Assembly (NCBI RefSeq): GCF_029278565.1
Contig: NZ_CP119559.1
Span: 1,178,001-1,242,000 of the forward strand
Direction: 5' to 3'
DNA length: 64,000 bases
Source: Haloarcula halophila
GTDB taxonomy: Archaea > Halobacteriota > Halobacteria > Halobacteriales > Haloarculaceae
Position numbers and translations under genes: made by a program. Positions 1-39,056 of this stretch are shown here, piece by piece. Position 1 is the first letter of the stretch; every line of letters begins with the position of its first letter. The notes under the pieces are model-generated. The model was not told where the DNA came from, did not search any database, and worked only from the letters and a program-made list of their open reading frames with translations.

Positions 1-168
1 ACGTTGCAGTCCGGAGAGCTCCGTCCGCACACCGGGGCAACAGATCTCGCGTGGGGTGCAGAGTACGACAACCAGACCGCCTCGACTGCGACGCGAGTTA
101 TCAGCCTCAACAACGACACAAACGACGTCTGTGACCCGATCTGTTGGTTGGTGGTGCGCGCATGGTGA
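1..168 (+). CDS. 3' end of a secreted pilin-like protein (DUF7287-like position)
   Basis: An open frame runs from the first base to a TGA at 166-168; the 5' part lies outside the window. The 55 visible residues are polar and end in CDPICWLVVRAW, a hydrophobic tail followed by Trp, much like the end of the next protein (EVRLIVW). Two cysteines occur four residues apart near the C terminus. The stop overlaps the ATG of the next gene (ATG at 162), so it is the upstream member of the same operon. In other haloarchaea, as I recall, a DUF7287 protein precedes the DUF7288 gene; only the position and tail support that here. Confidence 0.6.
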   Translation, partial: TLQSGELRPHTGATDLAWGAEYDNQTASTATRVISLNNDTNDVCDPICWLVVRAW

Positions 169-764
169 GTGGCTCCCGTGGCCAGGCGTACACGCTCGAA
201 GGCGTCTTGGCGGCGATCCTCGTGATCTCGGCGACGGTGTTCGGGATCACTTCGATCGACACGCGTGCCTGGGAAGACGGAACGAGAGAGGAAACCCGTC
301 GGCTCGAAGCCCGGGCCGACGACCTATTGACTGTCAGCAAGAACACTGGCGCACTGGAAAACGCCGTGCTCTGCTACAATTCGGGCCGATCGCGCATCAA
401 CGGCAACAATTCGAGCAACCCGGCGGAGTTCGAGGAGATGCTCAACCTGACCTTCGACTCCCGGGGGAACCAGTACAACATATACTTCAACTACCTCAAC
501 GAGACCGGTGAGGAACGCGTCACGGAACTCGTCTCCGAGAACTCGCCCGCGAGTGCGAACCGCCCGTCGACAGGTGCCGCCACCGTGACACGGACCGTCG
601 CGATAACCGACGACATGCGGGTCCGGACCAACAATGCGTCGAAATCGAACGCCTGTGGGAACGAGGGACCGAGTGTAGAGTCGATATCGAGTTTCTACAT
701 CCCCGATGCCGATGACAAGACACAACTGTACAATCTGGTGGAGGTGCGACTGATCGTATGGTGA
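162..764 (+). CDS. Pilin-like secreted protein, DUF7288-like
   Basis: 200 residues. The N terminus carries RGQAYTLEGVL at residues 6-16 followed by a single hydrophobic helix to about residue 32. This resembles a class III (type IV pilin) signal: a basic/Gly site followed by a Thr-Leu-Glu and a hydrophobic stem. The rest is a polar outer domain with several N-x-S/T sequons and only two cysteines (LCY and ACG). I chose the ATG at 162 rather than an upstream TTG at 144 because 162 overlaps the preceding stop and sits directly before the signal. The family label DUF7288 is from memory. Function is unknown; it is probably a minor pilin or pseudopilin. Confidence 0.72.
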   Translation: MVSGSRGQAYTLEGVLAAILVISATVFGITSIDTRAWEDGTREETRRLEARADDLLTVSKNTGALENAVLCYNSGRSRINGNNSSNPAEFEEMLNLTFDSRGNQYNIYFNYLNETGEERVTELVSENSPASANRPSTGAATVTRTVAITDDMRVRTNNASKSNACGNEGPSVESISSFYIPDADDKTQLYNLVEVRLIVW

Positions 765-1678
765 GCGCTGCCGATTCCCGTGGCCAGTTGCTGCTCGTCG
801 GCGGGATCGCGATCGCGATCGTGTTCCTGCTGTCGATCATTCTCACCAACAGCCTCGTCGTGACCTCGTATACGGCGACCCCCGAGAGCGCCGACCGGAT
901 CGAAGAAGTCGAGGACCGCGAAACGGCCGTTCAGCAAGACCTCACGACCATCGCGACGGCAGTCCGCAGCAACACGACGTTCTCGGACTACAACTCCTCG
1001 CTCAACGCGTCGCTGCGGAACTACACGCGGTATCGAACGCGGGTCAGCGGCTCACAGTCGGGTGTGTACATCAATGCGACGTTGAACAGGACGGCGTCAG
1101 AGGGGAACATCACGAGCCAAACGGGTTCGAGCCCAACCAACTTTCAACGACCAGATCCAAGCGGACCTGGTCCAGGTTATGACTGGACAATAGCCAACGA
1201 CGTAGATCAAATAGTGCTGTTCAATCTCACACTATCCAATGTTATCGGTGGGCCATCGAATACGTTCACTATTGAAGTAACTGGTCAAGGTGGGAGCGGG
1301 AGTAGTTGGAGACTTGAAGCCGTACCATCCGGAGGGGATATTCGGATCGATACCACTACGGGAACAGATGTCTGCCCTTCGGGAACCAGCGATCCAGAGT
1401 TGAATCTGATTGCCGGCACCTGTAAAGGATCTAGTGGTCCTCCGGAGAATTTCACTACGTTTGAAGACACTTTGGATAAACCGTACAATATCGAGATTAG
1501 GAACGGAAACAAAGTCAATGATGGTAAGTACTGGTACGGTTCTACAGGTGAATTCCCGAGCACCAGTTACAATTCGGGCGATTACTCACCGTATCCAATC
1601 ACTCCCGCCGTCGATCTCACCTACACCGGCCCACAGACCGGCTACAACCGCACCATCATGCTGGAGAACAGCACATGA
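758..1678 (+). CDS. Pilin-like secreted protein, DUF7261-like, with a low-GC insert
   Basis: 306 residues, starting at an ATG that overlaps the previous TGA. N-terminal RGQLLLVGG (residues 8-16) leads into a hydrophobic segment to about residue 32, then a polar ectodomain rich in N-x-S/T sequons. There are two cysteines (DVCPSG and GTCKGS). Roughly from base 1130 to 1600 the codon use changes: many A/T third positions, against G/C in the gene's start and end and in all neighbours. This segment encodes the distal domain and looks like a replaced or fast-evolving block. The family label is from memory; the role is probably as a surface-filament component. Confidence 0.72.
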   Translation: MVSAADSRGQLLLVGGIAIAIVFLLSIILTNSLVVTSYTATPESADRIEEVEDRETAVQQDLTTIATAVRSNTTFSDYNSSLNASLRNYTRYRTRVSGSQSGVYINATLNRTASEGNITSQTGSSPTNFQRPDPSGPGPGYDWTIANDVDQIVLFNLTLSNVIGGPSNTFTIEVTGQGGSGSSWRLEAVPSGGDIRIDTTTGTDVCPSGTSDPELNLIAGTCKGSSGPPENFTTFEDTLDKPYNIEIRNGNKVNDGKYWYGSTGEFPSTSYNSGDYSPYPITPAVDLTYTGPQTGYNRTIMLENST

Positions 1679-2139
1679 TTGGGTCGTTGTTCGCCGACAC
1701 ACGCGGTGTCTCGCCGGCGGTTACACAGGCGTTGACCATCGGCATCTCGACGCTCCTGGTCACCGGTCTGTTGATCGCCGGTGGGTCGCTGATCGAGGGA
1801 CAGACCGAAAACGTCGCCCGCGAGGGCCTGATCGACATCGGTTCGGGTGTCGCAACCGATCTGGTCCGACTCGACCAGTTCAACACGTCGACGCTGAACT
1901 CCGACATCGAGTTCCGGTCGCGCTATCCCGAGCGCGTCGCCGGCGAGCAGTACCGGATCTCGCTCGTTCCGACGAGCAGCCAGACCAGAATCTACGTCAA
2001 CTCGACCGTGGAAGATTACTCGACGGTCGTCCGGTTCGAGAACCAGAGCCGTATCTGTTCGGGGACCGCCGACGGCGGCGCGGTCACGGTCCGGTTCAAC
2101 ACGTCGAGTAGCGCACAGTGCATGGAGATCAGAGACTGA
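1675..2139 (+). CDS. Pilin-like secreted protein, DUF7266-like
   Basis: 154 residues. The start ATG overlaps the preceding stop (ATGA). RGVSPAVTQALTIGI at residues 10-24 opens a hydrophobic stem to about residue 38; RGVSP is the motif seen at haloarchaeal pilin cleavage sites. After the stem come a short helix (residues 44-65) and a beta-rich head with two cysteines (RICSG and QCMEI), probably disulfide-linked outside the cell. Size and layout fit a minor pilin. Translational coupling to both neighbours suggests fixed stoichiometry. Exact family name uncertain. Confidence 0.7.
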   Translation: MIGSLFADTRGVSPAVTQALTIGISTLLVTGLLIAGGSLIEGQTENVAREGLIDIGSGVATDLVRLDQFNTSTLNSDIEFRSRYPERVAGEQYRISLVPTSSQTRIYVNSTVEDYSTVVRFENQSRICSGTADGGAVTVRFNTSSSAQCMEIRD

Positions 2140-2903
2140 TGATATCGAGATACGCTCCCGATGGGACCGGTCGCGCAGTGTCGGATCTAGTCGCGTTCAC
2201 ACTCGTCTTTAGCATCATCATCAGCTCGATCGGTTTTCTCACAGTCGGCGGGTTCACGGCGCTCGAAGGCGTCAGAGACGGCGCCGAAACGAACACTGCG
2301 GAAGCGACGATGGTCGGCTACGCGGAGACGCTATCCGACCACAGAAACGAGCGTGCGCCGCGGCGTGAGACGACGATCAAACTCCAGGGCCATTCACTCG
2401 CCCGCCAGCCGTCATCCTTTGTCGTCAACGTATCGGCCGTCCCAGGAAACGAGACGGTCTCGACAGGGGCACTCGTCAGGACGACCAGTAGCGACACGGA
2501 GTTAGTGTACACAAGCGGTGCGGTGTTCCGTGTCGAAGACAACGGTGGCGTCCGGGTCGTTCGCGCGCCACCGTTCCGTTGTGATGCCAACGGCGCTCAT
2601 CTGTCGTTCGTACAGGTGATCGGCGATCTCAACCAGTCCTCCTCCGGTCGGGTGACACTCCGGAGTCAACTCCAGGACCGGTCGCTGTACTTCCCGAATC
2701 AAACGTCCGCATCCGCTGCGACAGACAACGGGACTGTCAGCGTCAACGTCAGCGGGACCGAGTATACGGACGCATGGAAACGGACGTTCGACCGCGATCT
2801 TGGCTGGACCGCTGTCAGTGGAACCGGCGGGACGTACGAATGTTCGGGAATCGAACAGGCCGTCGTCGAGAACACGTCGATCGATATCCAAGCGGTCTCC
2901 TGA
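2139..2903 (+). CDS. Pilin-like secreted protein, DUF7289-like
   Basis: 254 residues when started at the ATG at 2139, which overlaps the previous stop as TGATG; an in-frame ATG at 2118 lies inside the previous gene and is less likely. GRAVSDLVAFTLVFSI (residues 11-26) is a pilin-type signal and stem, followed by EGVRDGAETNTAEATM, a helix typical of this family, and a beta-rich ectodomain with two cysteines (FRCDAN and YECSG). Last gene of the left-end operon. It resembles the N-terminal part of the giant convergent protein at 3242-7045, which also has a pilin stem followed by a short helix. Confidence 0.7.
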   Translation: MISRYAPDGTGRAVSDLVAFTLVFSIIISSIGFLTVGGFTALEGVRDGAETNTAEATMVGYAETLSDHRNERAPRRETTIKLQGHSLARQPSSFVVNVSAVPGNETVSTGALVRTTSSDTELVYTSGAVFRVEDNGGVRVVRAPPFRCDANGAHLSFVQVIGDLNQSSSGRVTLRSQLQDRSLYFPNQTSASAATDNGTVSVNVSGTEYTDAWKRTFDRDLGWTAVSGTGGTYECSGIEQAVVENTSIDIQAVS

Positions 2904-3241
2904 CCGCCACACGGGACGTGGGTAGAGTCGGACACGGGTTTCAGTGACCCAGTCGAGTTGTAACTGCAGTCGCTTCGTACCGAGTAAGCGACGATCGGTC
3001 CGATACGATCAGTCGATCGGTGGTGCTTCTACTCCAGCCGTCGATTCGCTGCTTCGAACGACGACGCCCGGACTACTCCCCACGGAGTTCTCACTCGCGG
3101 TGGGTCATCCCCGACACCGGTAGCGGAGCCTATCTGTCAATCTATGTTGTGAAAGAGCGAGACTGTGCTTGCAATCGGCGCGGACTCGGTATGCTATGCG
3201 ACGAATAGCAGTGCAAAACTAAAACGACGAACGACGGATGA
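2904..3241. other. Non-coding gap between convergent genes
   Basis: 338 bases between two converging stop codons. I see no supported gene here: short frames exist but lack an archaeal promoter and haloarchaeal codon use. The stretch 2985-3022 has repeated GATCGG/CGATCGGT words that could pair weakly. Base composition from about 3120 to 3240 is lower in GC than the coding regions. It most likely holds the two transcription terminators. Confidence 0.5.
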
Positions 3242-6200
3242 CTACGGCGCGGTCACGTTGATGACTTCGGAGTCGACGTTGACCGGCGAGTCCTCACGCG
3301 TACTGACGCCGTCGGGGACTTTCTGGAGGAACAGCTCGCCACGCACAGTGGTGTTCTCGCCACTCTCTGCGCTCTGCGTGTCGTTGTAGACCCGTATCTC
3401 GTAGTCGTAGGTGTTCCCTGTCGAGAGTGAACTGACGTCGAAGCCGTATTGTGTCGGTTGGGTTGCACCGGTGTACACCGTCTCGGTCTTCGAACTGTCG
3501 ACGACCGTCGTCCCGTCGTCCTTCGAGATCCGGAGACGGACCTCTCGCTCGTCGGAGACTCGACCGACGTTTTCGACACCGACGTTCATCCGCGAGATAC
3601 GTCCGCGGCGGACGATCTGGGTTCCGGGCGTGTAATCTTTCGTCCCGATGTTGATGTTTGCCGGTTCGACATCCGACTGGCCGAGCTCGATGGACTGGTT
3701 CCCGCTCGTCGTGTTGGGCGTCGTCACGTAGTAGCTGTAGTTCCCTTCACGGCCCGGAGTTGCGGTGATCTCGAAGGTGAGTCCTGTGCTGGTACCCGCC
3801 GAGATCGTCCGCGTCTTCGTCACGGAGTAGCTGTTTCCGGTGTCGGTGTTCTCGTAGACCAACGTCAGGTCCATGTTGGTCCCGTCTCTGGACCCGATGT
3901 TGTCGATCTGTGTGCTGATAACCGGGTTACTGTCGTCGATATCGTCGGTGCCGTTGTTGATTTCGGCGACTGCCGGCCCCTCCATCTTTGTCACCTGATA
4001 GTACGGGCCGCCGGCGCTCCCGATCCGTAGCTGCTGGGCCTGTGAATCGTCGGTCACTCCGTCGCTTCCCCGTGCCTCCACTTCCCAGTTGTACGTCCCG
4101 GGGCCGTAGCTCGCCGTCGGCAGGGTGATCGTAACGTCCGTCTCCTCGCCGGGATCGAGTACGCCCGTGGTTTCCGGACTCTGTGGTGAACCGTCAAACG
4201 CCGGATGGATACTGGCCTGTCCGGCCTTCTCACCGGTGTTGTTGATCGTCACGTCGACGCTGGTGTCTCCCGAACCGCTGCTGACCCGTGCCGGTGCGTC
4301 CACGTCGGTGATGTTGAACGTCGCAGGTTGGACGTTCTCACGCTCTGTACTTACGATCTTCAGCGACACGACGGCGTCGTTGTAGTCCGGGTCGTTCGGT
4401 TGATCGGCGTTTTCGGGCAGCGCGTTCCGCTCCGATAGCTCGTACATGAAGATGTACTGATCTTCGGCGAGCTGGAGGTTCCCGTCTTCGTCGATGCTCG
4501 CGTTGACCGTATCGAGCATGTCGTCCAGGCCGAGTTGGAACGCACTCGCTTGTCCGAGTGCTGGCGGTTTGTCGCCGTTGCCCAGGATAATAACGTTGCT
4601 CGAACTCTTCGTGTTCGTGATATCGATCCGTTCACCTCCCCAGTCGGAACAGGTGTACGCGTCCAGTTCGTATTCGGTCCCCTGGAAGGTCCGATAGTGG
4701 TTGTACCCGTCGTCTCTGTAGTCCCGACAATAGTATGACGTTCCCCAGACGGAGAGCTTCGACCCGGCGGTGACGTTCATCTCTTTGACGTACGGATTAT
4801 CGATGGTCTCCCGATACATCCGCTGCTCTGCATGCGGGTGGTTGATGTTGCCACCGTATTCGCCGGTCCAGAGCGGGGAAATGTCTGTTGTCGTCTCGTT
4901 CTCGACGTATGTCCGGACTGTTGTCGGCGCAGCGATCTCGTATCTGCCGTAGTAGTCCGTACCGTTGCCCTCAAGTTCCGAACCGCCGGCGACGATCTCG
5001 ATTCGCGCGTCTTTCGTAAATTCGAGGAACTCGCTTCCGTCGCTGTCTTCACCTTCTTCGACACCGGACCCTTCCGCTCTGACCTCCAGAATCTGACTCA
5101 ACGAGCCGTTCTCGGTCTCGGCTTCGATCGTGTTCTGGCCCATGTCGAAATCAGCCGAGTTGTTCTCGACAGTCGTCGTGAACGTCTTTGTCTTCTCCTG
5201 GCCGGGGTTCAGCGTCACGTCCCACTCTTCGAGGTCGGAGTTCGTCTCCTGATTCTCGAGGTCGAGTGTCTGTTCGTCGCTGATTCCGCCGCTGTTCGTT
5301 ACGGTGACACCGATCGTGACATCGTTGGTCTCCCTGACGCTGCTGGGATCGATCTCCAGACGGTTGATGACGAAATTCGGCGCCGCGTTCCCGGCTTTGA
5401 CGTAGAACGTGCTCCGCTGGGTCTGGTTCGGCGTCGTCAGGGTCACGCTGTAGGTGCCGGTGTTCGAGAACGTATGCGTGACCGATCGGGTCGCCGTATC
5501 GGTGTTTGCCAGCGTCTCGGTCCCGTTGGTGCTGGCGACGACTGTCCCGGTGTCCTCGTTCTTGACCGTCGCGTTGACGTAGCCGGTCAACGTCTGGTTG
5601 CCGACGTTCTCGACGGTCGCCGAGAACGTCTCCGTATCGCCCCGCGTTGGCGTGTTGTAGCTCAGGCTGTTGATCTCAAAGCGACCGGGGGGTCCGACGA
5701 CGAACGGGACCTGCATCGAGTCACTGCCGACAGTGAAGTTCAGTTGATGCTTCCCCTCGCGATTGATCGGCAGGGCGTCGCTGATATCCTGGCTGACGTT
5801 CTCGCCGGGATGGACCGTCGCACTCCAGGTGGTGTTGGGTTGGCCAGTGACGTTGAGTCCGATCGTCGCCGTCTTGGTCATGCCGCCGGTGTTGCTGACC
5901 CAGACGTGGCCGTCAGTCGTGTTCCCGACGGTCGTCCCGGTCGAGATATTTTCCGCGGAGAACCCGACGTTCGGAGTGGCCGATGGACTGTTGAACTGGA
6001 CTTTCGTCGTCGAGTTATCGTCGGCCGCGACCGTGACGTTACGCGGTCTCGGGGGGCTCCCGGAGACGATATCACTGTCGTCGAGCGTGAAGGTGACCGT
6101 CTTGCTGGCCTTTCCTGCGAGAGTCACGTCCTTGGAAGTATCGACCGTCCCGTTGTCGTAGACGAACCTGACCTCCTTCGTCGCATCCAGTCCGCCAACG

Positions 6201-7045
6201 TTCGTGATTTCGGCACTGACCTCGTAGTCTGACCCCGGACCCGGTGTCACGGTGACGTTTTTCGCCCGGAATTCGGGATCGGACACGTCACCAAGCTGGA
6301 ACGTGATCGTAACGTTGTCGTGGGGTTCGGCGGGCATTCCGCCTTCGGCGCTCACGTTCACGCGCTTGTCGTCGTAGTTGTTCCGGGCCCAGTCCGCCCA
6401 TGCGCGTGCGAACGTGCTGTTGCTTATTTTCAGCGATGCGTTGTCGACCGTCGTCGGCGAGCAAGCGCCGCTGCCGTACAGTTCGCGGCTGATGTTACGT
6501 TGCTCGTTGACTTCCTTCGTAACGTTCGAAGTCGCTTTCAGCGTTCCGCTGGAGGTGAGGTCCCCGGTGACGTTCGTGAACGAAACCGAGAGCGAGCCGT
6601 TGTCGTAGTTCAGGTCCGGCGGCGCACTCATCACCGCACCAGCTTCGGTCATCTTCCAGACACCACCCGCCTCGTACGCAGTAACAGTGTCTTTCCCGTC
6701 GTGTCTGATCGTTCCCATCTGCCGGGGGCCTGCCATGCAGTTAGCGTCCCCGTTTAGCGTCAGACTGTAGGTCGCGTTCCGGTTGATAGAGACGTCTTTG
6801 TCGACCTCGTCGCTGATCTCGAACGTCTGTCCATCCTCGTCGGACTGTTGGAAGACACTGTCGACTTTCAGCATCGTCTCCTCTGAGATCTCCTCGTTCG
6901 AGTCGGCATTTAGGTCCTCCACAACGGCAGACCCAGCCAGGAGAACGACAGCGATACCCACCATAGTGATACCGATGAGAAGTACCGCCGCCACGACAGT
7001 CGACATCCCACGCTTATCGATCGCGTTACTCCCCTCTAAAGTCAT
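3242..7045 (-). CDS. Giant pilin-headed surface protein with CARDB-like repeats
   Basis: 1267 residues. Residues 11-40 (KRGMSTVVAAVLLIGITM and on) look like an archaeal pilin signal with a Gly-13/Met-14 cleavage site and hydrophobic stem. Residues 44-60 are an acidic helix. The rest is extracellular: a head with two cysteines (ANCMAG and GACSPT), several tandem beta domains with NVG/NTGG and TVTF-type strands that match CARDB repeats, a central region with two more cysteines (YYCRDY, YTCSDW), then further CARDB-like repeats to the end. There are exactly four cysteines and dozens of N-x-S/T sequons. A leaderless promoter precedes it. It could be an adhesin tip or very large minor pilin. The link to the convergent pilin operon is inferred from position. 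Confidence 0.72.
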   Translation of the reverse strand: MTLEGSNAIDKRGMSTVVAAVLLIGITMVGIAVVLLAGSAVVEDLNADSNEEISEETMLKVDSVFQQSDEDGQTFEISDEVDKDVSINRNATYSLTLNGDANCMAGPRQMGTIRHDGKDTVTAYEAGGVWKMTEAGAVMSAPPDLNYDNGSLSVSFTNVTGDLTSSGTLKATSNVTKEVNEQRNISRELYGSGACSPTTVDNASLKISNSTFARAWADWARNNYDDKRVNVSAEGGMPAEPHDNVTITFQLGDVSDPEFRAKNVTVTPGPGSDYEVSAEITNVGGLDATKEVRFVYDNGTVDTSKDVTLAGKASKTVTFTLDDSDIVSGSPPRPRNVTVAADDNSTTKVQFNSPSATPNVGFSAENISTGTTVGNTTDGHVWVSNTGGMTKTATIGLNVTGQPNTTWSATVHPGENVSQDISDALPINREGKHQLNFTVGSDSMQVPFVVGPPGRFEINSLSYNTPTRGDTETFSATVENVGNQTLTGYVNATVKNEDTGTVVASTNGTETLANTDTATRSVTHTFSNTGTYSVTLTTPNQTQRSTFYVKAGNAAPNFVINRLEIDPSSVRETNDVTIGVTVTNSGGISDEQTLDLENQETNSDLEEWDVTLNPGQEKTKTFTTTVENNSADFDMGQNTIEAETENGSLSQILEVRAEGSGVEEGEDSDGSEFLEFTKDARIEIVAGGSELEGNGTDYYGRYEIAAPTTVRTYVENETTTDISPLWTGEYGGNINHPHAEQRMYRETIDNPYVKEMNVTAGSKLSVWGTSYYCRDYRDDGYNHYRTFQGTEYELDAYTCSDWGGERIDITNTKSSSNVIILGNGDKPPALGQASAFQLGLDDMLDTVNASIDEDGNLQLAEDQYIFMYELSERNALPENADQPNDPDYNDAVVSLKIVSTERENVQPATFNITDVDAPARVSSGSGDTSVDVTINNTGEKAGQASIHPAFDGSPQSPETTGVLDPGEETDVTITLPTASYGPGTYNWEVEARGSDGVTDDSQAQQLRIGSAGGPYYQVTKMEGPAVAEINNGTDDIDDSNPVISTQIDNIGSRDGTNMDLTLVYENTDTGNSYSVTKTRTISAGTSTGLTFEITATPGREGNYSYYVTTPNTTSGNQSIELGQSDVEPANINIGTKDYTPGTQIVRRGRISRMNVGVENVGRVSDEREVRLRISKDDGTTVVDSSKTETVYTGATQPTQYGFDVSSLSTGNTYDYEIRVYNDTQSAESGENTTVRGELFLQKVPDGVSTREDSPVNVDSEVINVTAP

Positions 7046-26337: not shown

Positions 26338-26567
26338 TCGAACAGGTCGTCGACCGCCCCGCGTGCGGCGAGCGCGGCGTCGTCGGCGACCTGCCGCTCG
26401 TCGGCGTTGGTATCCGGCGCGTTGACGTAGACGTCCACGTCGAGGACCCCGTCTTCGAACGTGACGGTTACGTCGATGTCCTCGATCTCGCCGACATCGA
26501 ACCGGGAGAAGACGACGTTTTCGGCCGCGTTGGCGGCCGTCTCGACGACTTCGTCGTCTGTCGGCAT
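26334..26567 (-). CDS. DUF3194 family protein
   Basis: 77 residues from the ATG at 26567. Acidic, with MPTDDEVVETAANAAENVVF at the N terminus and a single beta sheet region (VTVTFEDGVLDVDVYVNAP), matching DUF3194, a small archaeal family encoded next to prefoldin beta. It starts four bases after the pfdB stop, so translation is probably coupled. Function unknown; the constant partnership suggests a role with prefoldin or in translation. Confidence 0.82.
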   Translation of the reverse strand: MPTDDEVVETAANAAENVVFSRFDVGEIEDIDVTVTFEDGVLDVDVYVNAPDTNADERQVADDAALAARGAVDDLFD

Positions 26568-26571
26568 CGCC

Positions 26572-26961
26572 TTATGCGCCGCCTGCGCCGGGACCGCCTG
26601 CCGGGCCGCCGCCGGGGCCGCCACCGAGCATCTGCTGGAGTTCGCTCTGGAGCTCCTCGAACTGCTCTTGGACGCGACTTTCCTGCTTTTCGAGGGTCTC
26701 GACGCGGACTTCGAGGTTGCTGACCTTCTCTTCGAGGTCGTCGTGCGCTTCGTCGAGATCCGTCTGGACCAGCAGTTCGCCGACCTCGCGGTACATCACG
26801 GTGTCGTCCTCGACGTCGTCGAGTTCGTCCAGGGCAGTCTGTGACTCTTGGAGGTCTGTCTCGGCCTGCTGTTTCTGTGCGGCGACCTGCTGTGCGGTCT
26901 CCTGCAGGTCCTGCAGTTCCTCGAGCTTCTCCTGTGCTTCGGGTGGGAGATTTCCTTGCAT
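26572..26961 (-). CDS. pfdB: Prefoldin subunit beta
   Basis: 129 residues. Two long coiled-coil helices (about 8-50 and 70-112) surround a short beta hairpin with [17 protein letters not shown] (51-67), the central barrel of the prefoldin hexamer. The protein ends with a Gly/Ala-rich tail ([18 protein letters not shown]) beyond the normal family length. Prefoldin (2 alpha, 4 beta) captures unfolded proteins and passes them to the thermosome. The alpha subunit gene is not here. Confidence 0.93.
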
Positions 26962-27020
26962 ACTCCGACGGTCGAGGTCCGCAGTGTTAAACCCACGCTT
27001 TCACCCTGAGCGGCAGGCCC

Positions 27021-27785
27021 CTACTCGGGATAGAGTTCCTGCTCGCGGTCGATCGCGTCGATCCGCTCGATTTCACTCTCGTCCAGGTCCAACTCGGCAG
27101 CTTCGCGATTAGCCCGCAGGTGCTCGCGGGAGGACGCTTTCGGAATCGTGACGACGTTGTCGTGAGCGAGCACCCAGGCGATGCTGACGGCGGCGGGTGT
27201 GGTGTCGTGGGTCGCCGCGATGTCGGTGATCGTCGGATCGTCGAAGACAGCCCCGCCCGCCAGCGGCGAGTACGCGACCAGCGGATAGCCGTGAGTCTGT
27301 GCGTCCGCGAGCAACTCCCGACGGGAGAAGAACGGATGGAACTCGACCTGGTGGGCCGCGATAGGTGCGTCGAGATGCTCGCGAGCGGTCGCCAGTTGCT
27401 CGGGCTCGAAGTTCGAGAGGCCGACGTGGGTCGCCAGTCCGTCCTCCCGGACCGCATCGAGTGCCGGGAGCGTCCCGCCCGGCTCGTAGTCGCCGCGAGG
27501 GCGATGGACGTACAGCAGATCGACCGCGTCCAGCCCGAGCCGGTCGAGACTCGCTTCGGTTCCCCGCCGGACGTCGTCACCGGCCAGACGATCGACCCAC
27601 AGTTTCGTCGCGACGAGCAGCTCCGAGCGGTCGATCGACGCCGCGGCGATCCCGTCGCCGACGACACCTTCGTTCTCGTAGATCTGTGCGGTATCGAGAT
27701 GGCGGTACCCGATCTCGATCGCGGTCGCGACCGTCGATGCGTCGGAGATTCCCATCGTCCCGAGGCCGACAGGCGGAAGATGCAT
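27021..27785 (-). CDS. Aldo/keto reductase
   Basis: 254 residues from the ATG at 27785. The catalytic tetrad is readable: Asp and Tyr in YRHLDTAQIYENE (about 27-39), Lys in VATKLW (about 58-63), and His in LYVHRPRG (about 91-98). NADPH-binding features VTIPKASSREHLRAN (about 214-228) complete the fold. It would reduce an aldehyde or ketone; the substrate is unknown. It sits with a DUF7344 gene between pcc1 and pfdB, where I would expect those two to be adjacent, so this pair looks like an insertion. Confidence 0.9.
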   Translation of the reverse strand: MHLPPVGLGTMGISDASTVATAIEIGYRHLDTAQIYENEGVVGDGIAAASIDRSELLVATKLWVDRLAGDDVRRGTEASLDRLGLDAVDLLYVHRPRGDYEPGGTLPALDAVREDGLATHVGLSNFEPEQLATAREHLDAPIAAHQVEFHPFFSRRELLADAQTHGYPLVAYSPLAGGAVFDDPTITDIAATHDTTPAAVSIAWVLAHDNVVTIPKASSREHLRANREAAELDLDESEIERIDAIDREQELYPE

Positions 27786-27822
27786 ACGCGACGGTCGACC
27801 GGCGATCCAAAGGGGTTGTCGG

Positions 27823-28230
27823 TCAGAACTCCCGGTGGTCGGTGACGGCATCGGCGTGTTCCGCCCACTTCTCGACGGTGGGCGCTCCCCAGTACCGGAC
27901 CGTTTCGCTGCGCTCGTCGAAATCCAGTACGCCGAAGTCGTGGAGTTTCGGGAGATGTGTCTCGATCAGTTCGGTCTCGACGGCGTCGACGGTTGCGTCG
28001 GTCGGGGGGACTGAACTCGACTGTCCACGGGTGCTGACGGCGACGGCGAGAGGACGGACATCGATAGCCTGCTGGTCGGCCGTCGAGAGGTGTCGGCAGA
28101 CTGCGCGCCGCCGCCAGTCCGCGAGGATGTCGAAGACGTCGTCGACGATCGGCGTCGTGAACCCACGGTCCTGTGGCGTCATTCCCTGCCACTGCTCACC
28201 CGTTGAACCGTCGGTACTACGGTTTGACAT
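27823..28230 (-). CDS. DUF7344-type winged-helix protein
   Basis: 135 residues. A winged-helix-like core is visible: FDILADWRRRAVCRHLS (33-49) and VETELIETHLPKLHDFGVLDFDERSETVRYW (84-114), the arrangement seen in haloarchaeal DUF7344 proteins that resemble HTH regulators. One Cys only. Possible regulator of the adjacent aldo/keto reductase, whose start codon lies 38 bases from its stop; that is inference from position. Family name from memory. Confidence 0.75.
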   Translation of the reverse strand: MSNRSTDGSTGEQWQGMTPQDRGFTTPIVDDVFDILADWRRRAVCRHLSTADQQAIDVRPLAVAVSTRGQSSSVPPTDATVDAVETELIETHLPKLHDFGVLDFDERSETVRYWGAPTVEKWAEHADAVTDHREF

Positions 28231-28308
28231 ACACCGATACGATTGACCGCCCCGGGTATCAACTGACTATCTAGCTACCTAGACGAGGCTTCGGACACTG
28301 TCTCCCGA

Positions 28309-28584
28309 CTATCCTTCTCGGGTGCTCTGGACCGTTCCCGCACCGGTATCGGCCCTCTCAGCGGTCCCCACCAGCGTCAGCCAGGTGTTACAACCGGCTC
28401 GCAGCGCGACGAGGTCGTCGGCAGTCACCGTGATCTCGACGGTGTCCCCCTCGCGCACGAGCGTCGCGGTCGTCCTGTCACCGTCGATCGCACCGATCTC
28501 GGGGCGGACGCTGCGCTCGACCCGGCGAGCGCGTTCGGCTGAGTCGAACGGAACGGAGAGAACAGTGGTGTGTGGACCGCTCAC
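28309..28584 (-). CDS. pcc1: KEOPS complex subunit Pcc1
   Basis: 91 residues, GTG start overlapping the rpoP stop (GTGA). Small alpha/beta protein with [22 protein letters not shown] (8-29), the Pcc1 pattern in which a first strand and helix precede [22 protein letters not shown]. Pcc1 is the dimerisation subunit of the KEOPS complex that makes the t6A37 modification on ANN-decoding tRNAs with Kae1, Bud32 and Cgi121. Only this subunit is encoded here. Cotranscription with rpl43e and rpoP is expected from the overlaps and order. Confidence 0.87.
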
Positions 28585-28715
28585 TCGACGTTGATTTCTT
28601 TGATGTCTGGCGCGCGCTCCTTGAGCAGCACCCGGTGCCCACAGTACGGACAGCGGACGCCACCGTACTCGTCGAGCGTCACGTCGCGCTTACAGCGAGA
28701 ACACTTGTAGCTCAT
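28581..28715 (-). CDS. rpoP: DNA-directed RNA polymerase subunit P (Rpb12)
   Basis: 44 residues, too short for many gene callers. Reads [19 protein letters not shown] then [20 protein letters not shown] and ends INVE. Two C-x2-C pairs (CSRC, CPYC) bind one zinc; [11 protein letters not shown] is the conserved tail that contacts the polymerase. It is an essential subunit of the archaeal RNA polymerase assembly platform. The stop overlaps the pcc1 start; the start lies 26 bases after the rpl43e stop. Confidence 0.95.
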
Positions 28716-28741
28716 ACGTTGTGTGTGTCGATGGAGACTCT

Positions 28742-29020
28742 TTACTCCTCGTCTTCTCCCAGCGCGGCACGGATCGAGCGGCGGACGGTCTTGCCACCGG
28801 GCGTCTCGGGCTTGTAGCTCCCGCCGGTGAACGTGTACTCACAGTAGCCGCACTGCCAGATACCGGTTCCCTGCCGGTCGACACGGTCCTCACCGCAGTT
28901 CGGGCAGGTGTGGTCTTCGTTCATCTCCGCTTCGATCTCGGCGACGCGGCGGCGTGAGACACGACCGTAGCGAGCACCGAACCGGCCGGCGCTTCCGGTA
29001 CGTCCCTTTTTGCTGGCCAT
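28742..29020 (-). CDS. rpl43e: Ribosomal protein eL43 (L37Ae)
   Basis: 92 residues from the ATG at 29020. [20 protein letters not shown] is the basic N terminus; CPNC (39-42) and CGYC (about 57-60) make the zinc ribbon; [17 protein letters not shown] follows. A component of the archaeal large subunit. The ATG at 29020 is chosen because all family members start MA(S/K)K near this point and a TATA-like CTTATGTG lies about 30 bases upstream on the minus strand. First gene of the rpl43e-rpoP-pcc1 operon. Confidence 0.95.
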
Positions 29021-29132
29021 AGTGTTCTGCTGTCCGCCGAGCGTCCACATAAGCCCTTCGAGAGCGAGTTCCGCGGCTGGTTCCGTTCGGTATAGACTCA
29101 CAGGGGACACGGGAGCCAGAAGTGGCACCTGA

Positions 29133-29166
29133 GAGAGATAGTATTTATGCAATCATAATATCTCTC
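29133..29166. repeat. AT-rich inverted repeat (possible operator)
   Basis: GAGAGATAGTAT (29133-29144) and ATAATATCTCTC (29155-29166) match as inverted repeats in 11 of 12 positions, separated by the ten bases TTATGCAATC. It lies between rpl43e and the divergent small membrane protein gene. It is followed by another AT-rich block (AATTAACG, ACATAAAAACGG). The symmetry and low GC suggest a regulator binding site or a bidirectional promoter element; no protein can be assigned. Confidence 0.6.
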
Positions 29167-29234
29167 AATTAACGTCAGACAACATAAAAACGGCCACAGC
29201 TTCTAAGCGTTCGTGTCGAGAACCCTCGAACTGT

Positions 29235-29459
29235 ATGGACGAAGCACTCGAAGTCGTCGACATCGTCGCGGACTCGGGATTCGAGGGCATCGTCACCTGG
29301 GTCCTCCGTCTCGTGGGACTCGTCGTCCTGATCGCCGGGCTAGGAATGTGGCTGTTTACCGATGCCGGGCTCTTGGTCGTGCCGGCGCTGCTGATCCTGG
29401 GTGGATTGGTGTTGCTGGCCGCGCCGAGTGTCCTCCTCCTGCTCGCCGAGTTCGTCTGA
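29235..29459 (+). CDS. Small two-helix membrane protein
   Basis: 74 residues. MDEALEVVDIVADSGFEG is followed by two hydrophobic helices at about 21-43 and 46-72, with nothing beyond the second but EFV. TATA-like CTTCTAAGC at 29200-29208 is about 31 bases upstream. No family recognised; looks like one of the many small haloarchaeal membrane proteins. Overlapping reading frames here are poorer in codon use. Confidence 0.65.
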   Translation: MDEALEVVDIVADSGFEGIVTWVLRLVGLVVLIAGLGMWLFTDAGLLVVPALLILGGLVLLAAPSVLLLLAEFV

Positions 29460-29492
29460 CGGGCCAACGTCACCCTCGTCGGTGGACGGGCG

Positions 29493-30221
29493 TTACTCTT
29501 GGAGTTCAGCCGCTTGAAGCGCCTCGTTGAGATCGGCACGGACGTGTTCACCCAGTTCGCGGTCGCCGGCGGTCGTGACCACACGGTTCTCTTGAACGCT
29601 CGAGCCGTCCCGGATCAACACCCGGACGTTCCCGTTCGCGTCCGCCCGCGTAGCCTTCGCTCGGACGCCACCACGGGCCCCGGAGCCGCTGGCGTCGATC
29701 GGCCCCGGAATGACCTTCTTGACGTGAGGATGGTCCGCGACGGTCTGGAGGGCCTGCTGCCCGGTCCGGCCGCCGATCAGCGTCGAGTGGCTCCCGCCGA
29801 GCTTCTCGGCCAGCGACGCCTCGACGACCTCCAGGGCGGGTTCGCCGCGGCGGTCGAGGACCCGCTGGACCGGGTCGTCGCCTTCGACCCGGTAGAACTC
29901 GTAGTGGAGTTGGCCCCGGACGGCACCGATGACGGCCCGATCCCCCGTGACGTACACCTCCTCCGGTCGCTTCCGGCGCACCTCGTCTGCGATCAGCCCG
30001 GCGAAGTTGCGCAGTTCCACCACGGCCGACTGGTCGCTTCCCCCGCCCTCCGGCGTGGTCGTCACCGTTCGCTGGCCGACGACCTCGTCGTCGGCGATAC
30101 AGGAGACAGTCGCCCGGTCCCGGCCCAGTTCCAGGACGACGACCTCCGTATTGGCAGTGTGACAGACCAGGCAGTAATCGCCCGGTCGGGAGAGCGGCGT
30201 CGCACACTGCCGACAGTCCAT
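29493..30221 (-). CDS. DUF2103 zinc-ribbon protein
   Basis: 242 residues. An N-terminal zinc ribbon is formed by CRQC (3-6) and CLVC (17-20). The middle holds GGSHSTLIGGRTGQQALQTV (about 142-161) followed by ADHPHVKKVIPGPI, the DUF2103 signature, and the C-terminal domain ends NRVVTTAGDRELGEHVRAD. The family is archaeal and of unknown function; the sequence suggests nucleic-acid or nucleotide binding. Divergent from the channel-like gene at 30322; its TATA-like box reads GCTTATCCC on the minus strand at about 30243-30251, 26 bases from the start. Confidence 0.82.
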   Translation of the reverse strand: MDCRQCATPLSRPGDYCLVCHTANTEVVVLELGRDRATVSCIADDEVVGQRTVTTTPEGGGSDQSAVVELRNFAGLIADEVRRKRPEEVYVTGDRAVIGAVRGQLHYEFYRVEGDDPVQRVLDRRGEPALEVVEASLAEKLGGSHSTLIGGRTGQQALQTVADHPHVKKVIPGPIDASGSGARGGVRAKATRADANGNVRVLIRDGSSVQENRVVTTAGDRELGEHVRADLNEALQAAELQE

Positions 30222-30321
30222 GGTCGTCTATACGGGACCTGCCGGGGATAAGCGGGGCGGTCCGTCGCTCGACCATGTGCATTGCCAACACATTTTTTGC
30301 TCGGCTGTCCAACAGACTCCC

Positions 30322-31062
30322 GTGCGTGCCGGACCGCTCGGATCGCTGCGAGAACGGGTGCGGGCAGCGACGCGACCGTTGACGGCGTTCGTGGCGGTCG
30401 TCGCCGCCAGCATCGCCGGGTTCGTCGCGTTGACCGGTATCTCGGTCGTCGACGCGGCCTTCTGGTTGCTCGACCCGACCAGCATCGAGTTGTACTTCGA
30501 ACACCACGACGGACCGGAGCGGACGACCAAAGGGTTCGCCGTCGTCGCGTTCACGGCGTTGATTCTCGCCGGCATCTGGGTCGGGGAATCGGCGCTGGAC
30601 GCGGCCTTCGACGGCCGACTGGAGGAGGAACTCAGACGTATGCAAACGGAACGGAAGATCGCGGAACTCACCGACCACGTCGTCGTCTGTGGACACGGGA
30701 TGTTCGGACGAACAGTCGCAGAACGGCTCCGATCCCGTGGGCGGTCGGTCGTCGTCGTCGAATCCGACGAGAGCCAGCGGGAGCGCATCGACGAGTCGAC
30801 GCTGGTCGTCGCGGGCGACGCGCGTCGGGAACCGGTCTTGGAGGAAGCCGGCGTCGACCGTGCAGCGGCGGTGGTCGCGGCCATCGACGATTCGAGCGCG
30901 AACATCCAGATCGGCGTCGCCGTGAGCCAGTTGGCGCCGGAGGCACGACTCGTGGTCCGGGTCGGGGAGCGGATGTACGAGTCGACGGCCAGGCGTGTGG
31001 GTGCCGACGTGGTGGTCATCCCCGAAGAGGTCAGCGGCTCGGAGGTAGCAGAAGAGCTGTGA
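30322..31062 (+). CDS. Two-helix membrane protein with NAD-binding (TrkA-N/RCK) domain
   Basis: 246 residues, GTG start 27 bases after the TATA-like CATTTTTTGC at 30291. Two membrane helices (about 20-39 and 75-95) flank a loop AFWLLDPTSIELYF that sits where a K+ channel pore helix and filter would be, but the T-x-G-Y/F-G filter is absent. A soluble RCK-like Rossmann domain follows (VVVCGHGMFGRTVAERL, 117-133, with a G-x-G-x2-G nucleotide loop; VVESDESQRERI; AGDARREPVL). It may be a degenerate channel or a regulatory membrane protein that senses NAD. Archaeal relatives are often annotated as K+ channel family. Confidence 0.78.
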   Translation: MRAGPLGSLRERVRAATRPLTAFVAVVAASIAGFVALTGISVVDAAFWLLDPTSIELYFEHHDGPERTTKGFAVVAFTALILAGIWVGESALDAAFDGRLEEELRRMQTERKIAELTDHVVVCGHGMFGRTVAERLRSRGRSVVVVESDESQRERIDESTLVVAGDARREPVLEEAGVDRAAAVVAAIDDSSANIQIGVAVSQLAPEARLVVRVGERMYESTARRVGADVVVIPEEVSGSEVAEEL

Positions 31063-31067
31063 ACCGG

Positions 31068-32438
31068 TCACACGGCAGGGTCGCCCTTGCGGAACTCCCG
31101 CAGTAGAACCGTCGCGTAGCTCCCTTTCGGGAGCGAAAAGGAAAACGCCAGGTCGTCCCCGTCGCGGGCGACGGCCAGATCGGTCCGGAGCAGGACTGCC
31201 CGGCGGGTCCCCGTCGAGTCGAACTCCCCCGGGAGGTCGAAGTCACCGGGTTCCAGGCCGACTTCGGCGAGCACCGCCCGTTCGATCTCTCCGGGGTCGC
31301 CGTCTGCCAGGTCCGTCTCGGTCCCGATCAGCGGCGCTGTGACGAACGCCCGTCCACGCGCACAGTGTCGTTGGACGGTCCGCAGGCGTCGATCCGTCAC
31401 CCGCTGGGTTCGGTCGGTGTCCGGGAGCCGGAGGCCCTCGGGCGCGTCACCGTCGGCGAAACAGACCACGTCGCCCTCGACGGGGCGGTCGAACGGAAGC
31501 CCCCGTGCCAGCCGCTCAGAGAGGATGCGGTTGAAGACGTACGACTGGGCGGCGTTGACGAACAGCGTCTGGAGGTTCGACGGGACCGCCTCCAGCGCGT
31601 CCCGGAAGTCCGCCGGGGTCCCGGCACCGTTCTCGACGAGCCGGTGACAGATCGAGCGTTCGTAGCCGAGCGCACGGGGCAGTCGCTCCAGCGCACCGGC
31701 CCAGTCGTGGGTCTCGTCGACGTAGGCCCGTGCCTCGCGGGTATCCGCCGGTTCCCGTTCGCTCGGGTTCCCGACGTAGGCCAGCACGGCACCTTTCCAC
31801 TCCCCGCGGGCGATCTGGAGGCCGACCTCGTGGGTGACTGGCCGGCGCGACCCGAACCGCTGTTGGCCGAAGTAGTTGGGGACGCCGACGGTCCGTTCGT
31901 CGTCAGGGAGGCCCCTCCCGGACCCCTCGTCCCCGTCCTCGCCGGCGCCGAACGCCGCTAGATCGCCGAGTACCGACGCGGCGTTGTCCGGTGCGTCCGC
32001 CTCGCGGACGACGATCTCGAAGGCGTTGCCAGCCAGATCACCGAAGAGGATGGGCCGGCCGGCACGGCCGATCACCTCGATGTCGGCGTCGTCGATCGCG
32101 GGGACAGCCTCGGCGTCGATCCCCTTGACCGAGAACAGTTGGCGGGTGACCGCGCGCTTGTCCTTGGTCCCCGCCCAGGAGACCCGCTCCCGGGAGATAC
32201 CCAGCCGGTCCGACAGCGCACTCGCGAAGTCGTTGGTGTCCCAGTCGCGCAGCTCCACACGCACGACGAGATGGGGGTAGGCACCGGTGTCGGCGTCGAC
32301 GGGTTCGGTGTCGAACGCCTCCAGTTCCGTGACCCGGAAGTCCGCCGGTGACTCCCTGAGGTGGCCGCCCACGCCGTCGGCGTCACTGACGTAGTACTCC
32401 ATGCCGACCGACTGTTCGATCGCGTGGGCCTCGCGCAT
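31068..32438 (-). CDS. truD: tRNA pseudouridine(13) synthase TruD
   Basis: 456 residues, the longer archaeal form. The catalytic Asp lies in [15 protein letters not shown] (about 90-104), the TruD-specific motif. [13 protein letters not shown] (about 188-200) and [19 protein letters not shown] (about 290-308) are also characteristic, and the inserted TRUD domain lies between. It isomerises U13 of certain tRNAs; archaeal enzymes may also modify U35. The gene starts 54 bases from the divergent-free upstream MFS stop and ends five bases from the channel-like gene, convergent with it. Confidence 0.95.
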
Positions 32439-32491
32439 CTGTTAGTGGCTCCTTCGTCGGCACGGGTTTAGCGTTGGCGTTGTGCGGGCGG

Positions 32492-33835
32492 TCAGTCGTA
32501 GGCGTCGAACTCCTCGCCGAACGCGATGAAGTACGCGACACCGAGGAGGCCGACAGCCGAGGCGGTGAGGAAGGCCAGTTGCGGACCGGCTCTGATGGTC
32601 CGGCCGGCGATACCGAGCGCCCACTCGCTGCCGTAGAGCCAGCCGCCCAGGGCGGCGCTGGGGATGACGACGGTGTTGCGCACGAGGTAGTAGGTACCGG
32701 TGACGCGGCCGCCGGCGTCGGCCTCGGCGGGACCGACGATCAGCGCCTTGTGTGCCGGTAAACCGGCGAAGCGTAGCCCGGAGTAGGCAAAGAGCGCGAT
32801 CACGAGCCACTGGTCGGCCGGCGCGAAGATCAGTGCCAGCGGGAAGAGTGCGTACACGGAAAACCCGAGCGCCACGGCGGGCTTGAGGCCGGCGTACTCC
32901 GCGAGTTTCGAGACCGGCGCCATCGAGAGGATGGCGACGACCATCTCGACGCCCAGCAGGACGCCGAAGAAGGCGTCGGGACGCAACGAGAGCCCGAACC
33001 CGGAGAACCCCACGGAGAGAAAGTCCGTGACGACGATGACGAAGAAGACGTAGACCATCCCGTTGGCGAACCGGACGAGCGTGTCCGCGACCAACAGCGG
33101 GAGCAGCGGCGCGGGCATCGACCGCAGGTCCGCGAGCACCTGACCGACGCCCTCGAAGGACTTCCCCAGCGAGTCCTCGCTGGCGTCGTAGAGGACGTGC
33201 TGGGCGACGGTCGCGACCAGCGAGAACGCGATCGCCGCGAGCAGGATCGACTGGAACCCCCCGGAGAACGTCGGCGTCAGCGCGAGCAGGCCGGCCGCGA
33301 GCAGCGGGCCGAACAGGAAGCCGATCCGGCGGAACATCTCCGTGCTGGCAAACCCCATCGCCAGCCGCTGGGGCGGGACCGCCTGTTTGACGATGGCGAA
33401 GGTGGCCCCGAGCCCGAAGGACTTCCAGGCCTGTGCGAGGAAGAGACCGACGAAGACCAGTCCCCAGGCGGGCACCTGCAGCGGGCCGACGGCGACATCG
33501 CCGACGATCGAAGCGAGATACCACAGGCCAAAACCGAGGGTGGCCAGCACGGCGAAGGCCGTCAGCGCCAGCCGCGAGCCGATCCGGTCGGAGATCGCAC
33601 CGCCCGGATACGGGTAGACGGCGCTGATGAGGTTGCCGACGCTGCCGTAGAGACCGATGACGCTCGCGCTCGCGCCCAGGACGCGCAGGTACTCCGGCAC
33701 GTACCGGCCGGTCATCTGGAACGCTAGGCTGAAAGCGAGCATCGACAGCGAGAGGACCAGCACGTCCCGCTCCAGGGCGAAGAACTGCCGGAAGCTATCG
33801 AGCAGGTCGACCGGTTCCTCGCCGTCGGTGGCCAT
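32492..33835 (-). CDS. MFS transporter
   Basis: 447 residues with about twelve hydrophobic helices from residue 25 to 435. The loop between helices 2 and 3 is GGAISDRIGSRLALT (about 79-93), the MFS signature G-x3-D-R-x-G. The central region has PPQRLAMGFASTEMFRRIGF. The substrate is unknown. The minus-strand TATA-like CTAAGTAC at about 33858-33865 is 26 bases before the ATG, divergent from the small gene at 33973. Confidence 0.87.
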   Translation of the reverse strand: MATDGEEPVDLLDSFRQFFALERDVLVLSLSMLAFSLAFQMTGRYVPEYLRVLGASASVIGLYGSVGNLISAVYPYPGGAISDRIGSRLALTAFAVLATLGFGLWYLASIVGDVAVGPLQVPAWGLVFVGLFLAQAWKSFGLGATFAIVKQAVPPQRLAMGFASTEMFRRIGFLFGPLLAAGLLALTPTFSGGFQSILLAAIAFSLVATVAQHVLYDASEDSLGKSFEGVGQVLADLRSMPAPLLPLLVADTLVRFANGMVYVFFVIVVTDFLSVGFSGFGLSLRPDAFFGVLLGVEMVVAILSMAPVSKLAEYAGLKPAVALGFSVYALFPLALIFAPADQWLVIALFAYSGLRFAGLPAHKALIVGPAEADAGGRVTGTYYLVRNTVVIPSAALGGWLYGSEWALGIAGRTIRAGPQLAFLTASAVGLLGVAYFIAFGEEFDAYD

Positions 33836-33972
33836 GGGTGACTCGCACGGTCGGCGGGTACTTAGTTCCGGGAATTGCGGCCAGTAGCGACTATATAGCG
33901 GTATAATGCGGGATTTTCACACACCAGTTCGGGACACGGGACACACATATGGCTCCAGCCCGAGCCACGGGT
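33836..33972. promoter_or_regulatory. Divergent promoter region, MFS gene and small acidic protein
   Basis: 137 bases. Minus strand: CTAAGTAC near 33860 fits the MFS start. Plus strand: ACACATATGG at 33943-33952 is about 26 bases before the ATG at 33973. A third AT-rich block (GACTATATAGCGGTATAATG, 33888-33907) fits neither start and may bind a regulator. Confidence 0.45.
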
Positions 33973-34263
33973 ATGACCGAGCGGATCACCGGCGAAGTCA
34001 TCCACGTCGTCGAGCCGTCGGATCTCGACGACTACGACCTCCAGCCCGAACTCGAAGAGCTGGCCGACTCGCGGTACGTCCTCGTCTGTCGGGAGGGTGG
34101 TGTCCCGTCGTGGTTCGAACGCGTCCGGGCGTTTCTGCTGCGACGACCCATCGAACCGATCACGCTCGTCGCGGAACGGGGTGCCGACGAGGGCGAGGAA
34201 GTGACCGCGAGCGTTCGGGAGACGGGGATGCCGGGCGTCTACGAGGCGACGCGACTCGACTGA
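33973..34263 (+). CDS. Small acidic protein of unknown function
   Basis: 96 residues from ATG 33973, the start favoured by the TATA box 26 bases upstream; an ATG at 33949 lies inside that box. Soluble alpha/beta protein: GEVIHVVEPSDLDDYDLQPE at the start, then VLVCREGGVPSWFERVRAFL (about 38-57) and EPITLVAERGADEGEEVTAS. No family recognised. No operon partner: it converges with psmB, 40 bases away. Confidence 0.68.
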   Translation: MTERITGEVIHVVEPSDLDDYDLQPELEELADSRYVLVCREGGVPSWFERVRAFLLRRPIEPITLVAERGADEGEEVTASVRETGMPGVYEATRLD

Positions 34264-34303
34264 TCTCGTCGCGTCGGAACGCGAAAACCGGTCGGTGACA
34301 GTC

Positions 34304-34996
34304 TCAGACCGCCGACTCGTAGTCCTCGAACCGGTCGATCTCGACGCCGTCCTCGGTGACCTCGGCGAGGACGATTCCGTTCCCGGAACCGGTGTCACGC
34401 TCTGCGGCGGACTGGACCGCACGGATCGCCAGCTCACGGGCTTCTTCGAGGCTCATCTCGGGGTCGTACTCGCCCTCGATGGTCCCCGTCGCGACCATGG
34501 TCCCGGAGCCCGTAACTGTATAATCGTCCTGCAGGACGCCGCCGGCCGGGTCGACGCTGTAGACGTGGCTGCCGTCCTCGTCGACCCCGCCGATGATGGG
34601 GTTGATGGCGAAGAAGGGGCCACCGCGGGCGAAGTTGCCCGCGAGCGTCGACAGGGCGTGGATGCTCAGGGGCTCGTTACGACGCACCTCGTAGAGGTTC
34701 GCCTCCGAGCGCAGCGAGCGGATGAACGACTGAGCGCCGCCGACGCTGCCGACCAGCGTCATCGCGGCCGTCGGGTGGATCTGCTCGACCTTCTGGACCT
34801 GTTTGTTCGAGACGAACCGGCCGCCCAGCGAGGCGCGTCGATCCGTCGCGATGAGGACGCCCTCGTCGGTGCTGATACCGACCGTGGTCGTCCCCGTCTT
34901 GGTCACCGTCTCCTCGTCGCGGTTGCTGTCGTCCGAGGGGATGGTTCCGACCTGTGGCTCGTAGGCGTCGGTCAGGCGGTTGTCGGGATCGTACAT
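34304..34996 (-). CDS. psmB: Proteasome beta subunit
   Basis: 230 residues from the ATG at 34996 (a GTG one codon earlier is possible). A propeptide of about 35 residues is expected to be removed at KTG|TTTVGIS, exposing the catalytic N-terminal Thr. The active-site Asp (LIATDRRAS) and Lys (NKQVQKVEQI) are in place, as is the Ser-rich TGSGTMVATG loop. It forms the inner rings of the 20S core with PsmA. The start overlaps the psmA stop (TGATG), so the two subunits are coupled. Haloarchaeal Asp/Glu-rich tail. Confidence 0.95.
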   Translation of the reverse strand: MYDPDNRLTDAYEPQVGTIPSDDSNRDEETVTKTGTTTVGISTDEGVLIATDRRASLGGRFVSNKQVQKVEQIHPTAAMTLVGSVGGAQSFIRSLRSEANLYEVRRNEPLSIHALSTLAGNFARGGPFFAINPIIGGVDEDGSHVYSVDPAGGVLQDDYTVTGSGTMVATGTIEGEYDPEMSLEEARELAIRAVQSAAERDTGSGNGIVLAEVTEDGVEIDRFEDYESAV

Positions 34997-35730
34997 CACT
35001 CCTCACCTCCGAGTTCGAACTCGGCCAGGCGGTCGGCGATGTCGTCCTCCTCGAGCTTCGTGAACTGCTCGGTCTCGACGTCGATCGTGGCGATGTCGAC
35101 ACCGGTCGCGTCGAGGCCGTCGTCGTTGACCGACGCGAGCGAGCGCAGCGCCAGTTCGACGCCGGCTTCCAGGTCCATCTCGTCGGTGTACTCCTCTTCG
35201 AGGTAGGTCTGGATGTCCTCGCGGGAGCCACCGATGGCGACCGCTTGCCACTCGTAAGGGGTCCCCGACGGGTCCGTCTCGAACAGGCGGGGCTCGCCGT
35301 TCTCGATGCCACCGACCAGCAGCGCGACGCCGAACGGCCGTGCGCCGCCGGTCTGGGTGTACTGCTGGATGTAGTCGGTGATCTCCTTCGTGAGCGATTC
35401 GACGGAGGCCGGCTCGTCGTAGCGCAGCCGGTTGACCTGAGCCTGCCGGCGCGCCACGTCGATGAGTTGCCGGGCGTCGGCCACGTGGCCGGCGCTGGCG
35501 ATCCCGACGTGGTCGTCGATCTCGTGGATCTTCTCGATGCTGTCGCGCTCGATGAGCGGCGACCGGGCGCGCCGGTCGGCCGCCAGTACGACACCGTCGG
35601 CAGTTCGGACACCGACGCTCGCGGTGCCGCGTTTGACCGCCTCGCGGGCGTACTCGACCTGGTAGAGGCGCCCGTCCGGCGAGAAGATCGTGATCCCGCG
35701 GTCGTACGCCTGCTGTTCGTTTCCTTGCAT
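34996..35730 (-). CDS. psmA: Proteasome alpha subunit
   Basis: 244 residues. YDRGITIFSPDGRLYQVEYA (9-28) is the alpha-subunit N-terminal gate and H0 helix, followed by AREAVKRGTASVGVRTADG. KIHEIDDHVGIASAGHVADAR is the next conserved segment. There is no catalytic Thr, as expected. Outer rings of the 20S core; they gate entry and dock the PAN ATPases. A TATA-like GTTATATACA (minus strand, 35771-35780) is about 45 bases upstream, which predicts a short 5' leader. Confidence 0.96.
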   Translation of the reverse strand: MQGNEQQAYDRGITIFSPDGRLYQVEYAREAVKRGTASVGVRTADGVVLAADRRARSPLIERDSIEKIHEIDDHVGIASAGHVADARQLIDVARRQAQVNRLRYDEPASVESLTKEITDYIQQYTQTGGARPFGVALLVGGIENGEPRLFETDPSGTPYEWQAVAIGGSREDIQTYLEEEYTDEMDLEAGVELALRSLASVNDDGLDATGVDIATIDVETEQFTKLEEDDIADRLAEFELGGEE

Positions 35731-35770
35731 GATCTGTGTTCTCTGTTGTTCACCTGAGGTTAGGGTTTCT

Positions 35771-35780
35771 TGTATATAAC
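35771..35780 (-). promoter_or_regulatory. Probable TATA box of the proteasome operon
   Basis: Minus-strand GTTATATACA, about 45 bases before the psmA ATG. Transcription would begin near 35748, giving an 18-20 base leader, in contrast to the leaderless neighbours. A minus-strand AGGTGA at 35747-35752 could be a Shine-Dalgarno site but would lie at the very 5' end. Confidence 0.45.
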
Positions 35781-39053: not shown

Positions 39054-39056
39054 CGC

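Follow-up and report, generated by a model that had tools for sequence, protein, structure and literature searches.

We consider it highly probable that the locus at the start of the window, a 64,000-nucleotide stretch of the Haloarcula halophila genome, is a haloarchaeal type IV pilus locus in which each pilin head would acquire one intramolecular disulphide after export, and a giant surface protein two. The cysteines of these proteins come in pairs, and they do so in homologous loci across the haloarchaea.

The gene order pilB-pilC-DUF7287-DUF7288-DUF7261-DUF7266-DUF7289 is that of a type IV pilus operon, and the start of the window cuts into this operon, with the DUF7287 gene starting upstream of it (Table 1). 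An assembly ATPase gene and a platform gene adjoin the pilin genes, as expected of an archaeal type IV pilus. The giant DUF7289-type gene is convergent with the operon. The assignment of the DUF7261-like protein agrees with its place in the operon and with a profile built in this analysis.

Table 1. Pilus genes at the left end of the window and directly upstream, with cysteine positions (codon coordinates in brackets).
Feature	Position	Strand	Pfam match	Cysteines
pilB ATPase (VirB11/T2SSE), 830 aa	L039 7109-9601, directly upstream		PF00437, E 7.3e-32	
pilC platform protein (T2SSF/TadC), 681 aa	L039 9598-11643, directly upstream		PF00482, E 2.5e-26	
DUF7287 pilin-like gene, 3' end	1..168	+	PF23958, E 1.3e-28 (full protein)	two (130-132, 142-144)
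DUF7288 pilin-like protein, 200 aa	162..764	+	PF23959, E 2.5e-46	Cys71 (372-374), Cys165 (654-656)
DUF7261-like pilin protein, 306 aa	758..1678	+	PF23922, E 1.3e-5, 26.0 bits, slightly below the cut-off of 27	Cys206 (1373-1375), Cys222 (1421-1423)
DUF7266 pilin-like protein, 154 aa	1675..2139	+	PF23928, E 3.1e-17	Cys128 (2056-2058), Cys149 (2119-2121)
DUF7289 pilin-like protein, 254 aa	2139..2903	+	PF23960, E 2.1e-37	Cys148 (2580-2582), Cys235 (2841-2843)
Giant DUF7289-type surface protein, 1267 aa	3242..7045	-	PF23960, E 2.7e-9, at N-terminus	Cys103 (6737-6739), Cys195 (6461-6463), Cys773 (4727-4729), Cys799 (4649-4651)

The proteins start with RGQAYTLE, SRGQLLLV, RGVSPAV, GRAVSDLV and RGMSTVV, followed by a hydrophobic stretch. 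A short polar start, an RG or RA site and a hydrophobic helix make up a putative class III type signal, and cleavage is predicted. The AlphaFold2 model of the DUF7289 protein (pLDDT 91.4, pTM 0.81) places a helix at residues 10-71 ahead of a beta head, and both cysteines fall within blocks of pLDDT above 95. The DUF7288 model is fair (pLDDT 82.4), with a broken N-terminal helix and a beta head. Both models thus predict the long N-terminal helix and beta-rich head of a pilin. When the two models were used in a fold search of the PDB no significant match was found, and a profile search against PDB sequences returned no match.

Two cysteines in every complete pilin-like protein, two in the partial gene and four in the giant had been counted by hand in an earlier note, and translation agrees with each of these counts. 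The partial DUF7287 frame ends ...VCDPICWLVVRAW and its two cysteines form the motif C-DPI-C; the complete DUF7287 protein has two cysteines in its mature part. Across the pilins of the window the spacing between the cysteines ranges from 4 to about 94 residues.

We then asked how cysteines are distributed in homologous loci. A first set of 120 loci out of a sample of 145 Halobacteria genomes gave 687 mature proteins, and 681 of them had an even cysteine count (none in 256, two in 358, four in 57, six in 9 and eight in 1). At least two of the six odd proteins are trimming artefacts, since the extra cysteine lies ahead of the mature N-terminus, and in a further one it is inside the membrane helix. 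A second set of 80 named loci, found with PilC as the query, gave even counts in 65/65, 67/68, 75/75, 74/74, 36/36 and 65/66 proteins, 382/384 in sum; the two sets are not fully independent because some species are common to both. Judged by its named relatives there, the window belongs to the Haloarcula/Halomicroarcula group. Together they cover about 200 haloarchaeal loci.

When each cysteine column was permuted among the sequences only 49-67% of the proteins remained even. Over 800 kb of the genome that contains the window, an even count was found in 148/315 (47%) of the soluble cysteine-bearing proteins and in 8/15 Tat lipoproteins, an exported-protein control set that is small and, like the single-TM class, noisy since it was set by simple rules. 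Even counts therefore exceed chance, at about 99% in the same families against about 50% expected. The PilA-type pilins gave even counts in 18/19 proteins from the window's genome and in 15/16 from two distant genomes (33/35 in total), the exceptions being one truncated duplicate and one protein with a cysteine in the membrane helix. The paired cysteines across homologues are those predicted for disulphide-stabilised pilins, and the system-wide pattern appears to be zero or whole cysteine pairs. Separately, Pilin_N genes are repeated at both ends of contig G000:C1 (about 26,534-42,461 and 3,013,219-3,029,149, offset about 2,986,690 bp), one copy being shorter than the other, as if a circular contig had been left unclosed and its ends were redundant.

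The alignment columns that hold these cysteines are themselves paired. In DUF7287 columns 97 and 149 co-occur in 86/86 cases, and columns 342 and 353 (the CxxxC motif) occur together in 67 homologues. In DUF7288 columns 94 and 312 are both occupied in 30 homologues, with no case of one without the other, and rarer pairs are found at other sites. DUF7266 has columns 128 and 154 together in 45/46 homologues and columns 187 and 229 in 21/21; the cysteines of the window's DUF7266 protein are at 187 and 229. In DUF7261 column 371 pairs with either 434 (111 cases) or 406 (12 cases), and the window's protein uses 371 and 406 where its relatives mostly use 371 and 434. Similarly, DUF7289 column 425 is partnered by 189 (74 cases) or 401 (64 cases), and 189 is found with 401 once; two of these three sites are used at a time, never all three. 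To judge from the alignment, the DUF7289 columns look like a change of partner around one spot. Gain and loss of cysteines as pairs of columns is a mark that points to intramolecular disulphides.

The same two-cysteine cassette, with two cysteines in all five pilins and 4-8 in the giant, was found in most of 30 loci. It is monophyletic in each family (support 0.84-0.99), and most of its giants longer than 900 aa have two equivalent cysteine pairs, sometimes with a third. We found, however, that DUF7288 is cysteine-free in 101/121 homologues and DUF7266 in 72/115, and that both are cysteine-free in a paralogous cassette of the same genome. This rules out a universal rule of two cysteines in every member, which the earlier note had expected to be common to the whole assembly. 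Since DUF7288 and DUF7266 mostly lack cysteines outside the cassette, two in each is a trait of this cassette. The note had also named a common lack of one or both cysteines in homologues as evidence against its reading. Loss of both is common but loss of one essentially never occurs, which argues for a disulphide. Its proposal of one disulphide per head and two in the giant agrees with the parity, with the paired columns and with the recurrence of the giant's pairs in its relatives. We conclude from these patterns that a disulphide reading is very likely for these proteins.

The paralogous cassette lies about 12 kb upstream and contains the same five families together with a 601-aa surface protein (L038:11863-13668) that combines a DUF7289 head with a DUF7305 domain, for which the giant in the window has no match. 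No pilB-pilC pair was seen beside the paralogous cassette. In several relatives (L048, L050, L212 and L218) both cassettes adjoin a single pilB-pilC pair, with the two-cysteine cassette in between, which suggests a tandem duplication with one assembly machine in common. Some relatives (L051, L055, L056, L149, L151 and L152) have an enlarged DUF7266 protein of 450-590 aa that contains 2-6 cysteines.

Three other explanations of the paired cysteines were weighed. Even counts could be an artefact of shared ancestry, in which a few ancestral pairs were copied into many genomes; in its favour, the homologues have common ancestry and certain pairs are found widely within one lineage. However, after dereplication at 70% identity 502/506 cysteine-bearing proteins remained even, although these proteins still share ancestry and a binomial p-value for them cannot be read as a true probability. 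Parsimony on the five family trees gave 15, 10, 17, 4 and 13 changes in cysteine number (about 59 in total) and 88 changes in column pattern, with almost no odd leaves. The PilA-type pilins, which belong to a different Pfam family, obey parity too. An artefact of this kind is already largely excluded, and we give it scarcely any weight.

It is unlikely that the bonds instead join subunits and cross-link the filament or its tip rather than stabilise single heads. Cysteines are present in all five pilins of the cassette, which is passed on as a unit; but parity holds within each protein, even where operon neighbours are cysteine-free, and the switching of partners among three sites of one chain fits contacts within a head. 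The same switching would not be expected of a metal site, and this makes it very unlikely that the pairs bind a metal such as zinc or serve a redox role instead of forming structural disulphides. The CxxxC of DUF7287 and a CxxC in one PilA-type pilin (L295) do resemble ligand or redox motifs, yet the pairs occupy many positions with many spacings and no conserved accompanying motif was seen. Intramolecular disulphides are our preferred reading.

The make-up of the operon, the cysteine parity, the paired columns, the changes of partner and the oxidase homologues were observed directly in the sequences; we infer that the bonds form, that they lie within one chain and that they are of benefit. 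The N-terminal hydrophobic helix of each subunit would serve assembly, and the beta-rich head would face the outside of the cell. Of the giant's two bonds, one would lie in the DUF7289-like head and one in a domain around residues 770-800. The probable benefit is greater stiffness of the rapidly evolving heads in the face of swings in salt and temperature, proteolysis and pulling. Selection apparently acts against a lone thiol on the surface, and for this reason cysteines would be gained, lost or moved pairwise. Oxidation is probably the work of exported DsbA-like lipoproteins, which DsbB would recharge in genomes that have it; elsewhere another oxidant would probably act.

The genome of the window encodes a DsbB homologue (E 5.3e-16) at a distance of about 90 kb from the pilus genes. 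It also encodes two exported DsbA-like lipoproteins, which begin with Tat-type and lipobox sequences and carry the motifs CPHC and CPTC, whereas VKOR is absent. With exported DsbA-like proteins and DsbB in one genome, the organism appears equipped for Dsb-dependent oxidation. Among the 145 Halobacteria genomes DsbB is present in 61 and absent from 84, and the mean cysteine content per pilin is 1.43 with DsbB and 1.39 without it (p 0.63), so a requirement for DsbB is not supported. No dedicated oxidoreductase was seen among the genes of the pilus operon. The suggestion that an oxidoreductase could be needed thus finds candidates in the genome, but none in the operon, and DsbB does not track the pilins. 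The nearest gene with a thioredoxin fold that we noticed, of AhpC/TSA type (L039:3990-4676), is situated between the two cassettes at about 7 kb upstream from the pilins; it is probably incidental. It is possible, though we are doubtful, that in haloarchaea almost every type IV pilin head is oxidised extracellularly, that lone thiols are counter-selected, and that most haloarchaea rely for this oxidation on an oxidase other than classical DsbB or VKOR.

The closest known systems are haloarchaeal type IV pilus loci, namely the Halobacteria-specific subclade 4C and the PilB4-type systems (PMC4858521) and pil-2 of Halobacterium salinarum (PMC4292770). These share with the locus described here an operon in which an ATPase gene and a TadC-like platform gene precede several fast-evolving pilin genes; an Ig-like minor pilin whose length varies is a further shared feature. 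The pairing of haloarchaeal pilin cysteines found here is not reported in the available text of either paper. The first is a census of archaeal pili from 2016, and the cysteines that its available text mentions are those of other lineages. In the clade 4E pili of Thermoproteales (PMC4858521) disulphides are predicted in almost all components of one system; those hyperthermophiles have multiple conserved cysteines, whereas in the halophiles studied here pairs appear, vanish and move. The type IV pilin of Pyrobaculum arsenaticum, likewise archaeal, has a head closed by an intramolecular disulphide, Cys80-Cys139, in the cryo-EM structure (PMC7347861). It differs in being a major pilin of a hyperthermophile, where disulphides are expected, and the available text of that work contains no family-wide parity analysis such as the one given here.

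Among exported haloarchaeal proteins, the halolysin SptA has a disulphide, Cys303-Cys338, that is backed by mutation and gel mobility and protects against cleavage (PMC3158780). SptA differs in that it is a secreted protease with two further cysteines whose mutation left gel mobility unchanged, and an all-paired cysteine pattern was not shown for it (PMC3158780). A literature search for haloarchaea, DsbA and disulphide together gave one match, which concerns ammonia oxidisers, and the five families DUF7287, DUF7288, DUF7261, DUF7266 and DUF7289 are not named in the literature searched.

In a survey of archaeal genomes halophiles served as controls in which disulphide bonding is practically absent (PMC3177088). 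Our data set a near-absolute even-cysteine rule in a large class of halophile surface proteins against that picture of disulphide-poor halophiles. They raise the question of which agent oxidises the pili of haloarchaea, above all in species that lack DsbB. Five uncharacterised DUF families gain predicted disulphide positions, and the predicted cysteine pairs offer distance constraints for modelling.
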